In this document: positions 9,919 through 58,996 of the stretch, in pieces
Position numbering within the stretch: position 1 is the first letter of the stretch
How the letters are laid out: each line of letters opens with the position of its first letter
Assembly: GCF_000515335.1 (NCBI RefSeq)
Contig: NZ_KI911563.1
Coordinates: 1,213,598-1,277,597, forward strand
Direction: 5' to 3'
Length of the DNA: 64,000 nt
Source of the DNA: Cohnella panacarvi Gsoil 349
GTDB lineage: Bacteria; Bacillota; Bacilli; Paenibacillales; Paenibacillaceae
Program-made: the position numbers and the translations under genes
The notes under the pieces: generated by a model
The model's input: the letters and a program-made list of their open reading frames with translations, nothing else
Told to the model about the DNA's origin: nothing
Databases searched by the model: none

Positions 9919-9998
9919 AGCTCTCTCTCCCTCCGGGTGCCTTTGGCGCTATCATCTATCTTACCACGCCAATCCCGGCGATTAAAGAGTAAGCTTAG

Positions 9999-10177
9999 AA
10001 AAACCCGCTTTGCCGTCCGGCGTGCATGTTTCTGAACCTGCTTTGGCAGGTGGGTGCGCGCAGCGCCTGCTTTTGACTACCCGTTTCGGGGGCGTGTCAG
10101 CCGCAGCGCAATGTAGGGCTCCCGGGAAACAAACATTGGTTCAAAACAATAAGCACCGTAACGCACATCGCAGGAAT
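9999..10177 (-). ncRNA. ssrS: Probable 6S RNA (RNA polymerase regulator)
   Basis: This 380-base gap has no credible gene but does have a clear minus-strand promoter and a transcript of about 180 nt ending in TTTTT. The 5' part begins ATTCCTGCGATGTGCG and can pair with ATGCACGCCGG near the 3' end, leaving a large inner bubble. Inside are TTTTGAACC, GGGAGCCC, GACACGCC and a CCCGAAACGGG hairpin, all reminiscent of Gram-positive 6S RNAs. 6S RNA mimics an open promoter and holds sigma-A RNA polymerase in stationary phase. SRP RNA, RNase P and tmRNA signatures are absent. The identity is recognised from memory of the family's shape and not from a model search. Confidence 0.68.
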
Positions 10178-10183
10178 AGCTCC

Positions 10184-28661: not shown

Positions 28662-29837
28662 ATGAATGAATCTGAAGCAACTATGACTAATCATGCACGC
28701 CAACTGTTCATCCTGCGGGCCATGCAATTTACGAACTATGCGTTCATGGTGCTGCTCATCTCATACTTCCCGCTCTACTTCGACAGCCTAGGTTTCTCCA
28801 AGCTTCAGATCGGAGCCATCTACTCGATCGGTCCGATGCTATCGATCGTGTCCAACATCGTCGTCGGCATCGTCGGCGACCGCTCGCGCAATATCCGAAG
28901 AGTGCTCAGCATCCTATACGTCGGACAAATACTCGGCCTGGCGCTGCTGCTGCCGCAGAAGGAATTCGGCATCATGGCAGGCATTATGGCTTTCTTCTAC
29001 TTCTGCCAAACGCCGATGAACGCCATGATGGACAGCGTCACGTTGCTCGCGGCGGAACGAATGAACCGCAGCTTCCCTTCGATCCGCATGTTCGGCTCGC
29101 TTGGTTACGCGGTGTGCGCCGTCTTATTCGGTTATATCTTGAAGCATTTCGGCTCGGACGAGACGATCATCATCGGTCTTGTCGTCGTCGCGATTTCGCT
29201 GATCCTGTCTTTATTCGTCGGCAACTACCAAGCGTCGCTTCGCAAATTCGAGTTTAGCGGCCTGATCGGCATCTTCAAGCAACGGGAGACGATCGCGTTC
29301 TTCGTCATGATCATGCTCGTCTCGATCGCTCACCGCATTAACGAAGGCTTCCTGGCGCTCGCCATGCGCGAACTGAATGCCGATGATTCGATCATCGGAG
29401 TCGCCTCTTTGGCTTCTTCTGTCAGTGAAATTCCGGTATTTTTCCTGCTGGCCAAATACGGCTATCGGTTCCGCGAGCTGCCGTTGCTTGCGATCGCGAG
29501 CACGATGTACGTCGTCCGGCTCGGCTTGTTGAGCTTGGCGGACGAGCCGTGGATGATGGTTGCCCTGCAGACGATGCACAGCGTTACGTTCGGCATCTTC
29601 TACATAACCGCGCTGCGGTATTTGCAGATCATCATTCCGGACGAATTCCGCGCCTCCGGTCAAGCCGTATTCGCGGTCGTCTGGAGCGGCCTGGCCGGCG
29701 TCGCCGCGGGTACGCTGGGCGGATGGTTGATCGATGCGATCGGCTTCGGGTCGGCGTTCAGGCTAGGCGCGCTGTTCGCGTTGCTGGGGGCCGTCGGGTT
29801 TTTCGCGATGCACTTTCGCAAGTCGTATACGGCTTAA
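28662..29837 (+). CDS. MFS transporter (MFS_1-like)
   Basis: A 391-residue, 12-helix MFS protein. Helix 1-2 ALMQFTNYAFMVLLISYFPLYF-like start, loop VGIVGDRSRNIRRVLS (motif A position), SFPSIRMFGSLGYAVCA typical of the LacY-like/nucleoside-proton symporter-like branch, and PDEFRASGQAVFAV before the last helices. Substrate not visible. ATG 28662 follows AGGGGAC; an ATG at 28683 is an alternative. It ends just before the 50-bp repeat array. Confidence 0.75.
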   Translation: MNESEATMTNHARQLFILRAMQFTNYAFMVLLISYFPLYFDSLGFSKLQIGAIYSIGPMLSIVSNIVVGIVGDRSRNIRRVLSILYVGQILGLALLLPQKEFGIMAGIMAFFYFCQTPMNAMMDSVTLLAAERMNRSFPSIRMFGSLGYAVCAVLFGYILKHFGSDETIIIGLVVVAISLILSLFVGNYQASLRKFEFSGLIGIFKQRETIAFFVMIMLVSIAHRINEGFLALAMRELNADDSIIGVASLASSVSEIPVFFLLAKYGYRFRELPLLAIASTMYVVRLGLLSLADEPWMMVALQTMHSVTFGIFYITALRYLQIIIPDEFRASGQAVFAVVWSGLAGVAAGTLGGWLIDAIGFGSAFRLGALFALLGAVGFFAMHFRKSYTA

Positions 29838-29895: not shown

Positions 29896-30873
29896 CCCGC
29901 CGCACCACTTGCCGCTATTTCGCTCACACGCGGGCGCGCGCCGATTTAACGGCACCTTGTGCCACTATTTTCTCTCTCTCTCTCGGGCGCGCGCCGATTT
30001 AACGGCACCTCTTGCCGCTATTTCTCTCATTCGCGGGCGTGCGCCGATTTAACGGCACCTTGTGCCACTATTTTCTCTCTCTCGCGGGCGCGCGCCGATT
30101 TAGCAGCACCACTTGCCGCTATTTCGCTCATTCGCGGGCGTGCGCCGATTTAACGGCACCTCTTGCCGCTATTTCGCTCATTCGCGGGCGCGCGCCGATT
30201 TAACGGCACCTCTTGCCGCTATTTCGCTCATTCGCGGGCGCGCGCTGATTTAACGGCACCTCGTGCCGCTATTTCTCTCTTTCGCGGGCAAGCGCTGATT
30301 TAACGGCACCTCTTGCCGCTATTTCGCTAAATCGTGGGCAAGCGCTGATTTAACGGCACCTCGTGCCGCTATTTCTCTCATTCGCGGGCAAGCGCCGATT
30401 TAACGGCACCTCTTGCCGCTATTTCTCTCATTCGCGGGCAAGCGCTGATTTAACGGCACCACTTGCCGCTATTTCGCTAAATCGTGGGCAAGCGCCGATT
30501 TAACGGCACCTCTTGCCGCTATTTCTCTCATTCGCGGGCAAGCGCCGATTTAGCAGCACCACTTGCCGCTATTTCGCTCTCTCGCGGACGCGCGCAGATT
30601 TAACGGCACCTTGTGCCACTATTTTCTCTCTCTCGCGGACGCGCGCAGATTTAACGGCACCTTGTGCCACTATTTTCTCTCTCTCGCGGACGCGCGCCGA
30701 TTTAACGGCACCTCGTGCCGCTATTTCGCTCATTCGCGGGCAAGCGCCGATTTAACGGCACCTCGTGCCGCTATTTCGCTCATTCGCGGGCAAGCGCCGA
30801 TTTAACGGCACCTCGTGCCGCTATTTCGCTCATTCGCGGGCGCGCGCTGATTTAACGGCACCACGTGCCGCCA
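29896..30873. repeat. Tandem array A: 50-bp repeat, about 18 full and 2 partial units
   Basis: Units begin with GATTTA at 29943, 29996, 30046, 30097, 30147 and so on to 30849. The period is 50 bases, with a few units of 51 or 53. Unit plan: GATTTAACGGCA, loop, TGCCGCTATTTCGCTCAT, then TCGCGGGCGCGCGCC. The arms TAACGGCA and TGCCGCTA form a hairpin; loop variants are CCTCT, CTT and CTC. Units differ at a limited set of positions (GGGCGCGCG or GGGCAAGCG, CGCTCA or CGCTAA). The array fills the gap between two convergent genes. Open frames inside it exist only because the period is not a multiple of three; none has a ribosome site. Confidence 0.95.
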
Positions 30874-30889
30874 ATCAAACACGCAAATA

Positions 30890-30928
30890 CGGGCTTGGAT
30901 GCGGCGATCGCCGCGTCCAAGCCCGTTT
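30890..30928. terminator. Bidirectional terminator next to array A
   Basis: CGGGCTTGGA (from 30890) and TCCAAGCCCG (to 30925) with an inner GCGGCGATCGCCGC palindrome form a very long stem; TTTTG follows on the plus side. It separates the array from the end of the CorC-like gene. Confidence 0.75.
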
Positions 30929-30953: not shown

Positions 30954-32300
30954 TCAGCCGGTTTCGGCTTGAAGTTCTTGGAGATTCCATTCCGAGTCGT
31001 CCATGCGGGTGACGGTAATGCGGGAAATGCGCAAGTTGTCCGTCTCCTCGATCGTGAACCGCAGACCGTCGTTCGATTCCACGAATTGGTTCTTCTTCGG
31101 CGGGCTTTCGATCTGGGAATACATCCATCCGCCGATCGTATCGTAATCGTCCGTCGGAATGTCGAGACCGAAGAAGTTGTTCACTTCCTCGATTAGCATC
31201 ATGCCGTTAATGGAATAAGTGCTGTCTTCGCGCTTCTCGACATCGGGACGCTCTTCGTCGAATTCGTCTTGAATTTCGCCAACGATCTCCTCCATGATGT
31301 CTTCCAGCGTCACGAGGCCGGCCGTGCCGCCGTACTCGTCGATCAGAATCGCGATCTGCGACTTCCGCTTCTGCATCAGCTTAAGAAGCGCGCTGATCGG
31401 CATACTCTCCGGAACGGTCGTGATCGGCCGCATGATTTCGCGAATATCGTGGACGGCATTATCGGTCGCCTTAAGCAGATCCTTGATATGAACGAACCCG
31501 ATAATATTGTCTTTGTCTTTGTCGCACACCGGATAACGCGTATGCATCTCGCGGAGCGCGATCTTCTTGTTCTCATCGAAAGACAGGTTGCCGTATAGGC
31601 ACATCATTTCTAGCCGCGGAATCATAATCTCGCGGGCGTTCGTCTCCGCGAAGTCGAAAATGTTGTCCATGAGCGTAAGCTCCGTATTATCGATCAAGCC
31701 GCTCTTGTGGCTTTCTTTGACCAGGATGCGAATTTCTTCCTCGGTATGCGCCGAGTTCGACTCGTCGGTCATATTAATGCCGAATGGCCGCAACAATAGT
31801 CCGGCGGTTCCGTTCAGCAACCAGATGAACGGACTCATTAACTTGCGGAAAAACATTAGCGGAGCTGCTACCCATAACGTTACCATCTCAGATTTGCGAA
31901 TCGCGACGGTCTTCGGCATCAGCTCGCCGAGCACGATATGCAGCAACGTAATGAACGAGAATCCGATTAAGAACGCCAACGGGTGGATGAGCTTCTCGCT
32001 TAAATTCCAATCGGCGAAAAGCGGCTCGAGCATTCTCGCAATGGCAGGCTCGCCGATCCAGCCTAGACCAAGCGAGGCTAACGTAATCCCCAGTTGGCAA
32101 GCTGACAGATAGGCATCCAGATGGTCCACGAGATGTGACGCGCGTTTGGCTCGCGAATGTCCTTCCTGAACCAACGATTCGATTCGCGTGCCGCGTACTT
32201 TCACCATCGCGAATTCGGCAGCCACGAAGAAACCGTTCAAAAATACGAGAAAAGCGATCAAGACCAAGTCCACGCTTAGCGGAAAGGGGTCTACGTCCAA
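30954..32300 (-). CDS. CNNM/HlyC-CorC family membrane protein
   Basis: About 448 residues. Order: DUF21/CNNM domain with four helices (about 8-190; FFVAAEFAMVKVRGTRIESL, QLGITLASLGLGWIGEPA, LGELMPKTVAIRKSE), two CBS domains (about 210-330; IMIPRLEMMCL, IDEYGGTAGLVTLEDIMEEI) and a C-terminal CorC_HlyC domain. Relatives export Mg2+ or Co2+. A perfect AAAGGAGGTG lies at about 32345, but the GTG at 32339 is inside it. The TTG at 32300 behind GGGGATAGGGA gives the family-like start (M)DVDPFPLSVDL and is preferred. Confidence 0.85.
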   Translation of the reverse strand: MDVDPFPLSVDLVLIAFLVFLNGFFVAAEFAMVKVRGTRIESLVQEGHSRAKRASHLVDHLDAYLSACQLGITLASLGLGWIGEPAIARMLEPLFADWNLSEKLIHPLAFLIGFSFITLLHIVLGELMPKTVAIRKSEMVTLWVAAPLMFFRKLMSPFIWLLNGTAGLLLRPFGINMTDESNSAHTEEEIRILVKESHKSGLIDNTELTLMDNIFDFAETNAREIMIPRLEMMCLYGNLSFDENKKIALREMHTRYPVCDKDKDNIIGFVHIKDLLKATDNAVHDIREIMRPITTVPESMPISALLKLMQKRKSQIAILIDEYGGTAGLVTLEDIMEEIVGEIQDEFDEERPDVEKREDSTYSINGMMLIEEVNNFFGLDIPTDDYDTIGGWMYSQIESPPKKNQFVESNDGLRFTIEETDNLRISRITVTRMDDSEWNLQELQAETG

Positions 32301-41852: not shown

Positions 41853-41931
41853 ATCGAGTAGATGGGGGCGGCTAGCCCCCGACCTCTCACACCACCGTAC
41901 ATGCGGGTCCGCATACGGCGGTTCCTAAAAG

Positions 41932-43323
41932 TTAACGAGTTTCAAGATAACGAGTTGTCAGACTTAACAGCCCTTGGTCACTCCAGTAGGAGCGATTAAG
42001 GGCGTTGTTTATGTTTCGGGACATTTCCCAGCATCCGCGGCGAGCGTTTGCCATCATTCTTGCCGCCCACTCCGGTACACCTAGGGCACGTAAGTTTCGG
42101 AGCCTGGATTTAGGTAGTTTCCACTGCTTCCATAGGCACATGCGTAGTCTTCGGCGAATCCATTCGTCGAGTCGTTCGCAGTGCGTCTTTACGGATGCTA
42201 GCCGGAAGTAGCCTATCCAACCCATCAGGTAGCGATTTAATTCTTGCAGCCTCTTCTCCATCGAGACGCCTCGCGTACGCGAGGTTATCTCCCTGACGCG
42301 TTCCTTTAGTTGTTCCAGTTTCTTCGGCGCGATTCGAATCGTCGCGACTTTGTTGCTGAGAAAGCTGAATCCAAGGAACTTGCGGTTCCATGGGCGGTCT
42401 ACCGCACTCTTGTCCCGATTCACTCTTAGTCTGAGCCTCTCCTCTACAAAGCGAATGACCGACGCCATTACGCGTTCACCTGCACGCTTGCTTCGGACAA
42501 AGATGTTGCAGTCGTCCGCATAACGCACAAACTTCAAGCCGCGTTCCGTTAACTCTTTGTCCAGATCGTCCAACAGGATGTTAGCTAAAAGCGGGCTGAG
42601 CGGACCGCCTTGCGGCGTTCCTTCCAGCGTCTCCTGCTTTGTCCCGTCGACCATGACTCCGGCATTGAGGTAGGAACGAATCAGCTTCAAGACACGCTTG
42701 TCCGCGACTTTTCGTGCTACCCTTGCCATGAGGATGTCGTGGTTCACTCTGTCAAAGAACTTCTCCAAATCTATGTCTACGACCCAGCGATTTCCTTCTT
42801 GAATGTAGGACTGCGCTTGTTTTACTGCGTCATGGGCACGTTTCCTTGGGCGGAATCCAAAGCTGTTCGGTGAGAATAACGGGTCGAAAATCGGTGTCAT
42901 TACTTGCATGAGGGCTTGTTGGATCAAGCGGTCCATTACGGTTGGGATACCTAACAGCCGCACCCCGCCTCCGGGTTTGGGGATTTCCACCCGTTTGACT
43001 GGCATCGGTCTGTACGTACCCAATTGGAGCTGCGCTTTCACGGTTTCCCAGCATTCCCATACGTGTGCTTGTAGCTCGGCTACCGTCACGTTGTCTATGC
43101 CGGGCGCTCCTCCGTTTTGTTTCACTCGCTTGTAGGCTTCTCGGAGATTTCCCTCCTCGAGCATTTGATCCAGCAAGTCGTGCTTTCCTTCGCGAGAAGA
43201 AAGGTCGGTTTGTGCCGACGAAGAACTCGGCGCTCCGGCATACCCTTGCGGTTTCACCGCTACCCTTTGCCGCGAGCTCCCTTGCGGGATATTCTGCTGT
43301 CGTTGTTCTTCGCGCGAACGCAT
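41932..43323 (-). CDS. ltrA: Group II intron reverse transcriptase/maturase
   Basis: 463 residues. A variable N-terminal tail (1-48), RT domains from about 55 with GAPGIDNVTV, VRLLGIPTVMDRLIQQAL, FGFRPRKRAHDAV, VVDIDLEKFFDRVNHD, GTPQGGPLSPLLANILLDDL and the catalytic YADD (268-271). After these come the GIIM maturase/thumb region (about 370-450, LMGWIGYFRLA) and no endonuclease domain, as expected for class C. It promotes splicing and reverse-transcribes the intron into new sites. ATG 43323 follows AAAGGAGAG. The frame is intact, so it may be active. Confidence 0.95.
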   Translation of the reverse strand: MRSREEQRQQNIPQGSSRQRVAVKPQGYAGAPSSSSAQTDLSSREGKHDLLDQMLEEGNLREAYKRVKQNGGAPGIDNVTVAELQAHVWECWETVKAQLQLGTYRPMPVKRVEIPKPGGGVRLLGIPTVMDRLIQQALMQVMTPIFDPLFSPNSFGFRPRKRAHDAVKQAQSYIQEGNRWVVDIDLEKFFDRVNHDILMARVARKVADKRVLKLIRSYLNAGVMVDGTKQETLEGTPQGGPLSPLLANILLDDLDKELTERGLKFVRYADDCNIFVRSKRAGERVMASVIRFVEERLRLRVNRDKSAVDRPWNRKFLGFSFLSNKVATIRIAPKKLEQLKERVREITSRTRGVSMEKRLQELNRYLMGWIGYFRLASVKTHCERLDEWIRRRLRMCLWKQWKLPKSRLRNLRALGVPEWAARMMANARRGCWEMSRNINNALNRSYWSDQGLLSLTTRYLETR

Positions 43324-43355
43324 CGATTTCTTCTCTCCTTTAGGTTCAGCCCTTC

Positions 43356-43377
43356 CGGTGTTGTTGCAACAACACCG
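43356..43377. repeat. Perfect 22-bp palindrome upstream of ltrA
   Basis: CGGTGTTGTT followed by GCAACAACACCG, perfectly symmetric, in intron domain IV a few tens of bases before the ltrA ribosome site. It would fold as an RNA hairpin and may affect maturase translation. Confidence 0.6.
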
Positions 43378-43730
43378 TACTATGGCTTCTGCTGACTCCT
43401 GCGGATTCAGCGCGACTTCTCAGCCACGGTTACGCAAATACTTCGCATATTCCACAGGTCTCCCCAGATAAGAACGTCATCTTTCCGCCCGCGCTCGCCC
43501 AAGTTTACGGCTGCAGCCTTTGGCAGCTTAGGATTTCGTCATGTGATGGTGACTCATCCGACTGCAACCGCCTCAAATTGGATTCGTGTACCTCGAGCCG
43601 TGCGTTTGCCTCCAGCTTCCTTCGGATTCCGCCTCGCGGCGGACACCCTTGCTCTTGGCTATGGTAGGCGCTTGCCAGCCCCCATTCCGGACTTTCACCG
43701 TAGAGATGACGCCCATGCTGGGCGTACATC

Positions 43731-47797: not shown

Positions 47798-48052
47798 TTA
47801 GCGTTGCGCGGCAACGTTACTGCGACTCGTGTGCGGGAGCGCGCCGGGTTAGCGTTGCGCGGCAACGTTACTGCGACTCGTGTGCGGGAGCGCGCCGGGT
47901 TAGCGTTGTGCGGCAACGTTACTGCGACTCGTGTGCGGGAGCGCGCCGGGTTAGCGTTGCGCGGCAACGTTACTGCGACTCGTGTGCGGGAGCGCGCCGG
48001 GTTAGCGTTGCGCGGCAACGTTACTGCGAATCGTGTGCGGGAGCGCGGCGGT
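47798..48052. repeat. Tandem array B: 51-bp repeat, five units
   Basis: Units start with TTAGCG at 47798, 47849, 47900, 47951 and 48002, exactly 51 bases apart and almost identical (one change in unit 3, a few in unit 5). Unit plan: TTAGCGTTGC, GCG, GCAACGTTACTGCGACTCGT, GTGCGGGAGCGCGCCGGG. TAGCGTTGC and GCAACGTTA form a nine-pair hairpin. Unit 5 contains the last codons of recJ, so the array extends out of the recJ 3' end. Confidence 0.95.
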
Positions 48053-58758: not shown

Positions 58759-58799
58759 TTGCTGCAGCCTCCAGGTAACGTTTCAGTTTCCGTTCATCC

Positions 58800-58996
58800 T
58801 AACAACCATGCGCAGTTATTTCATCTACTTCGGTGTCACGATAACTGAATAACAACCAATCGCAACTATTTTCGACCCAAAACCATCATATCCGTAAAAA
58901 TCGCGCAAATAACAAACGATATGTTGTTATTTTCCCCGTTCATCTATTATCTCGAATAATAACTATCGAATTGGTGTTATTCGCCCCTCGTAAACT
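58800..58996. repeat. Degenerate array C: about 50-bp repeat, four units
   Basis: TAAC starts recur at 58800, 58850, 58910 and 58960 (steps 50, 60, 50). Each unit is TAAC, 9-12 bases, then (G/A)(T/C)TATTT: TAACAACCATGCGCAGTTAT, TAACAACCAATCGCAACTAT, TAACAAACGATATGTTGTTA, TAACTATCGAATTGGTGTTA. In unit 3 AATAACA pairs with TGTTATT. Far more AT-rich than arrays A and B but with the same period and layout. It lies between the yajC terminator and tag. Confidence 0.7.

Follow-up and report, generated by a model that had tools for sequence, protein, structure and literature searches.

Intergenic dyad arrays of constant repeat length in Cohnella panacarvi and related bacteria

Runs of short repeats between the genes of Cohnella panacarvi Gsoil 349 point to a hitherto undescribed kind of non-coding DNA in which spacing matters more than letters, since related bacteria keep the repeat length and differ in sequence. 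The window, meaning the whole 64,000-nucleotide stretch that we analysed, holds array A, array B with a period of 51 bp and a degenerate element C, all of which the original prediction had located (Table 1). TRF resolves array A into 19.3 copies with a period of 50 bp (88% matches, score 1305), bearing out the predicted run of about 20 such units between convergent genes. The repeat unit is GATTTAACGGCAcctctTGCCGCTATTTCGCTCATTCGCGGGCGCGCGCC, and its dyad TAACGGCAcctctTGCCGCTA reads TAGCGGCA...TGCCGTTA on the opposite strand. Steps between units are mostly 50 bp, with some of 51–53 bp that stem from the varying length of a CT repeat. For gene calling we used our own simple predictor based on codon usage. 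The gap between the convergent neighbours of array A measures 1116 bp. The array starts 18 bp past the terminator-like hairpin of the CNNM/CorC gene.

Table 1 Features of the window and their positions
Feature	Position	Strand	Description
6S RNA	9998-10179	-	RF00013, 85 bits
MFS transporter gene (MFS_1_like)	28662..29837	+	Left neighbour of array A; 3' end 65 bp from array
Array A	29902..30871	.	About 19 head-to-tail 50-bp units; 21-nt dyad TAACGGCAcctctTGCCGCTA plus GC-rich spacer
Intrinsic-terminator-like hairpin of CNNM/CorC gene	about 30889..30927	-	From sequence and terminator scan
CNNM / CBS / CorC_HlyC membrane protein gene	30954..32300	-	Right neighbour of array A; 3' end 83 bp from array
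Group II intron	41853-43643	-	With reverse transcriptase/maturase (Rfam group-II D1-D4, domain V; RVT_1, GIIM domains)
Array B	47798..48051	+	5 units of 51 bp, dyad TAGCGTTGCgcgGCAACGTTA; overlaps final 31 bp of recJ, upstream of apt
Element C	58796..58981	+	Four AT-rich dyad sites, types 1,1,2,2, spaced 50/60.5/50 bp; between yajC and methyladenine glycosylase gene

A genome-wide class and its period

Searches of the 4.77-Mb, single-contig genome with A, B and C each yielded many further places, so the proposal of a genome-wide family holds. For an unbiased view, we sampled twenty 20-kb stretches (400 kb) and counted intergenic tandem repeats with periods of 25–160 bp. The sample contained nine arrays of period 51, from which about 100 arrays are expected in the genome. 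Among the sampled arrays were two types unrelated to B or C, both intergenic with a period of 51: type D, TAAGCACAC...GTGACACTA, and type E, ATTGTCGC...GCGACAAT. Across sample and window together, 11 of 13 intergenic arrays had a period of 50–51 bp. Two intergenic arrays of this genome fall outside the class, with periods of 42 bp (L161 2521–2735, units 100% matched) and 39 bp (L168 11393–11652).

Genomes of relatives, which were likewise sampled, extended this pattern within the genus and to one member of another GTDB family (G213). A period of 49–53 bp was found in 26 of 35 intergenic arrays from other Cohnella species, and six of eight from G213 had periods of 50–52 bp. Other families of the order contributed seven intergenic arrays, two of them in the range; 607 kb from Paenibacillus and relatives contained four, none with a period of 49–53 bp. 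Tandem repeats in coding sequences had periods other than 49–53 bp. The period, described at the outset as about five helix turns, proved to be the most constant property of the arrays.

Units are near-identical within an array and unlike between arrays; a CRISPR array was rejected on the grounds that spacers within an array are near-identical. Arrays sit intergenically near the 3' ends of genes and are sparse just upstream of genes, and several have ordinary terminators beside them. Convergent gaps accommodate 15 of 46 arrays, compared with 23 of 261 of the remaining gaps of at least 100 bp, an excess that may reflect mere promoter avoidance.

The gap that holds array A could be followed across the genus. 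Its CNNM/CBS/CorC gene has its nearest orthologues in Cohnella species (81–83% amino-acid identity), and the orthologous gap carries a 50–51-bp array in 5 of the 30 Cohnella genomes searched, C. panacarvi included and Cohnella sp. SGD-V74 and C. terricola among them. The sequences of these arrays are unrelated. Because only about 2% of gaps hold arrays in unbiased stretches of other Cohnella, by our estimate, this gap is array-prone. The same gap in Cohnella xylanilytica (L339 3054–3521, L080 5406–5873) contains a repeat with an 87-bp period and TTATCCC and GGGATAA motifs, which falls outside the 50–52-bp class.

Paired arms, type B repeats and element C

Many arrays have in common the frame CG-N3-TAR-N15-YTA-N3-CG, whose 21-nt dyad frequently takes the form TAR, 6-nt arm, 3-nt loop, arm', YTA. 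In a comparison of 18 array types, chosen partly by hand and not all independent, 78% of cells were paired versus 60% in shuffles, both sides had changed in 44 cells versus 19.6 ± 3.4, and the covariation score was 0.512 versus 0.203 ± 0.035 for shuffled and at most 0.164 for slid controls. Given this partial hand selection, we repeated the test without bias on pooled samples, taking frames from the outer motif alone with pairing ignored and collapsing near-identical arms. Arm complementarity was again in excess (52 of 78 versus 35.7 ± 3.9, p = 0.0002). The claim that arms change in pairs is therefore sound between arrays, but it does not extend into type B, where the stem sequence itself is conserved and no stem covariation was detected. 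Together, covarying arms across types and a conserved stem in type B indicate that what persists from type to type is the fold, and inside a single type the sequence.

Among 45 arrays of 48–54 bp, 15 had a singly significant inverted repeat at p <= 0.05 (combined chi2 = 196, df 90), so a clear hairpin is absent from some arrays. Outside the genus, the arms-free frame pattern had matches in 7 of 250 genomes of the order versus 4 for its reversed control, which makes the frame alone weak as proof there. The TAR...YTA hairpins present in the G213 arrays, an independent sample, are better evidence.

When aligned with array A, both B (30 matches versus 23.2 ± 1.3, z = 5.2) and type D (z = 3.7) scored above shuffles, whereas A–C (p = 0.18) and B–C (p = 0.49–0.62) alignments fell within chance. 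Thus the proposed single family of A, B and C is supported for A with B and not shown by sequence for C, whose resemblance to the arrays is limited to the outer TAAC...GTTA and to the spacing.

A covariance model of type B produced 164 matches at about 20 loci in C. panacarvi. Among the matches listed, all lie inside arrays, and thus no single-unit insertions were seen; the outermost units pass directly into unrelated flanks. Relative to genes in co-directional gaps, type B is sense in four cases and antisense in four, and it has no replication polarity (11 versus 7). A single palindrome spanning the whole 51-bp unit fits much of type B and was rejected because it fails in general. Type B is the most numerous tandem type found and was confined to its own genome among the 41 searched, which leaves the suggestion that array A is the founder of the family unsupported.

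Element C is a separate four-site element, distinct from the tandem arrays. The genome has about 35 dispersed C loci, the window copy included, most of which consist of AATAACAACGATTTGCAGTTATT twice (type 1) followed by AATAACTATCGATTTGCTGTTATT twice (type 2), and no copy was found outside C. panacarvi among 37 Cohnella genomes. Of 21 four-site copies, 17 have site centres separated by exactly 50, 60.5 and 50 bp, three of these 17 belonging to one local cluster, and the others keep to this spacing within about 2 bp. Identity among copies is 80% in the sites, 41% in the spacers and 29% in the flanks. The sites are AT-rich and their stems short, and the element often lies 10–50 bp past an intrinsic terminator.

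Element C is also polarised with respect to replication. With the origin at about 2.85 Mb and the terminus at about 0.5 Mb, as placed by sampled GC skew, 32 of the 35 copies run in lagging-strand orientation (32 versus 4 in a slightly different locus list minus the origin region, p = 1.9e-6). In convergent gaps, where neighbouring genes set no single direction, 12 of 14 copies are in lagging-strand orientation; in co-directional gaps, all 17 are antisense to genes that are themselves co-oriented with replication. The densest cluster seen (L047 2183–3005, genome ~2.804–2.806 Mb) lies near the inferred origin and comprises three consecutive C elements and extra type 1 sites.

Phased dyads and competing explanations

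Our preferred account, which we hold tentatively and at a little under even confidence, is that array A is a local expansion in a Cohnella-typical class of DNA-level, helically phased dyad arrays that dock a putative DNA-bridging protein. Identical dyads recurring every 50–52 bp, or about five turns of B-DNA, would face one side of the helix. The units may work as double-stranded DNA or as extruded hairpins or cruciforms, and a putative multivalent DNA-bending or DNA-bridging protein would dock on the phased dyads. Slippage or unequal exchange would alter local copy number, and novel arm types could emerge and then spread inside a species. The likely role would be DNA organisation or buffering at gene ends (supercoiling, domain boundaries), comparable to proposals made for REP/BIME. 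We consider geometry to be the key because spacing is constant, at about five turns in the arrays and about 5, 6 and 5 turns in C, and we favour double-stranded DNA over strand-specific RNA because type B orientation is random and G.U pairs are not preferred.

The peak of intergenic periods, with coding repeats differing, argues for phased dyads, as do the complementarity of arms across array types, the excess in convergent gaps and the spacing of C, kept while its spacers diverged. Other considerations run against them. A protein reading only the outer TA/CG positions has no need of paired arms, one reading the arms should be incompatible with the five arm types that coexist in a single genome, and quasi-palindrome correction during replication could keep arms paired. 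Furthermore, some arrays lack a significant dyad, and C is tied to the arrays by spacing and outer motif, not by sequence.

A first alternative is that the arrays are neutral or selfish minisatellites, in which hairpins favour slippage during replication and expansion in place, palindromes are perfected by template switching, and arrays survive in harmless 3' gaps. Avoidance of the region immediately upstream of genes, homogeneity inside arrays with differences between them, and the unrelated arrays that occupy the array A gap across species would all follow. We nevertheless regard this as somewhat unlikely, for it does not predict a single 50–52-bp period for unrelated sequences across the genus and in a member of another family, the common outer TAR/YTA frame, or the near-absence of indels in C spacing despite near-saturated spacer divergence.

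Non-autonomous mobile repeats, mobilised in trans by a transposase or recombinase that recognises hairpin structure much as RAYTs recognise REPs, would explain how type B came to occupy about 20 loci of one genome and none in the rest of the 41 searched, and why arms covary between conserved ends. Transfer of single strands on the lagging-strand template would also account for the polarity of C, and the frequent position of C past terminators speaks for mobility too. This account is distinctly improbable in our view. The REP-associated tyrosine transposase raised in the original prediction is missing: PF01797 detected no RAYT/Y1_Tnp gene in the 99.99%-complete genome and did find matches in control genomes, so a RAYT/REP system for the arrays was rejected. 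The confinement of listed type B matches to arrays and the lack of polarity in type B also weigh against mobility, no target duplication was noticed, and the searches made of phages, plasmids and viral contigs found no copies.

A function as 3'-UTR RNA, with tandem hairpins stabilising mRNA ends or blocking read-through between convergent genes, accords with array placement 3' of genes, the convergent-gap excess and stable predicted hairpins (MFE per unit of -19.9 kcal/mol on one strand and -23.9 kcal/mol on the other). We judge it very unlikely. Type B is oriented at random relative to genes, several arrays already adjoin ordinary terminators, and the AT-rich C sites form short stems only. 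Mismatches on the TAG...TTA strand comprise 20 G.U and 34 A.C, so G.U is no commoner; with wobble pairs favouring neither strand, a strand-specific fold was rejected. So was a known structured RNA family, as Rfam gave no match at the array at the gathering threshold or at E <= 0.5. The random orientation, unbiased wobble pairs and lack of an Rfam match likewise disfavour the RNA role initially suggested.

Phased dyads could be part of something broader. It is conceivable, though we think it unlikely, that Cohnella and some relatives use a chromosome-organising DNA code in which dyad sequence is nearly free, helical spacing of five or six turns is fixed, a putative protein serves as reader, and the replication-polarised, four-site C marks the chromosome from origin to terminus. 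Being replication-polarised, C is in any case of interest as a possible genome-orientation signal. More generally, finding such a class in a genus of firmicutes, where no RAYT accompanies it and unrelated sequences share repeat length and paired arms, sets spacing and symmetry apart from sequence. The function of intergenic palindrome arrays also becomes testable, as half-turn insertions should abolish the binding of any protein that docks on phased dyads.

Comparison with known repeat systems

In agreement with the original prediction, we found no described family with this plan in the open-access literature. The best descriptions of REP-like palindromes come from Proteobacteria, and an association with RAYT transposases is usual. 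REP/BIME elements are GTAG- and CGTC-tagged palindromic repeats, and the word Firmicutes is absent from the REP survey (PMC3733652, PMC2817692). The Cohnella arrays resemble them as short intergenic palindromes in many copies, mostly 3' of genes and in gaps whose flanking genes are convergent or co-directional, with species-specific arm families and proposed roles at the DNA level. Taken broadly, as abundant extragenic palindromes 3' of genes, REP/BIME embraces the 164 intergenic type B matches with their convergent excess; a further mark of REP/BIME in this sense is binding of gyrase, IHF or Pol I. However, REP dimers in head-to-tail arrangement are reported to be missing or under-represented (PMC3733652, PMC2817692), whereas Cohnella arrays are head-to-tail with a fixed period of 50–52 bp and lack RAYT. 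Unlike GTAG-REPs, A and B units carry no unpaired GTAG/CGTC tag; their ends are paired TAR/YTA, flanked by ATTAG or TTTAA.

Among Firmicutes, pneumococcal BOX is an intergenic repeat with a tandem, hairpin-capable module (boxB). BOX elements with tandem boxB have been described (PMC3049150). Type B arrays differ in showing no boxA- or boxC-like ends, and the Cohnella unit is 50–52 bp rather than about 45, with arm sequences that turn over. Mycobacterial MIRU-type minisatellites are dispersed intergenic VNTRs with units of ~50–77 bp that form one sequence family with a small reading frame; the Cohnella arrays, by contrast, keep period and dyad, not sequence. Integron attC sites form hairpins whose ends are conserved and whose arms vary yet remain complementary. 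Unlike these, Cohnella arrays have no cassettes between sites, their spacers are near-identical, and their ends misfit the attC core boxes. The arrays are most likely REP/BIME-like in place and possibly in role, and unrelated to REP/BIME by sequence.
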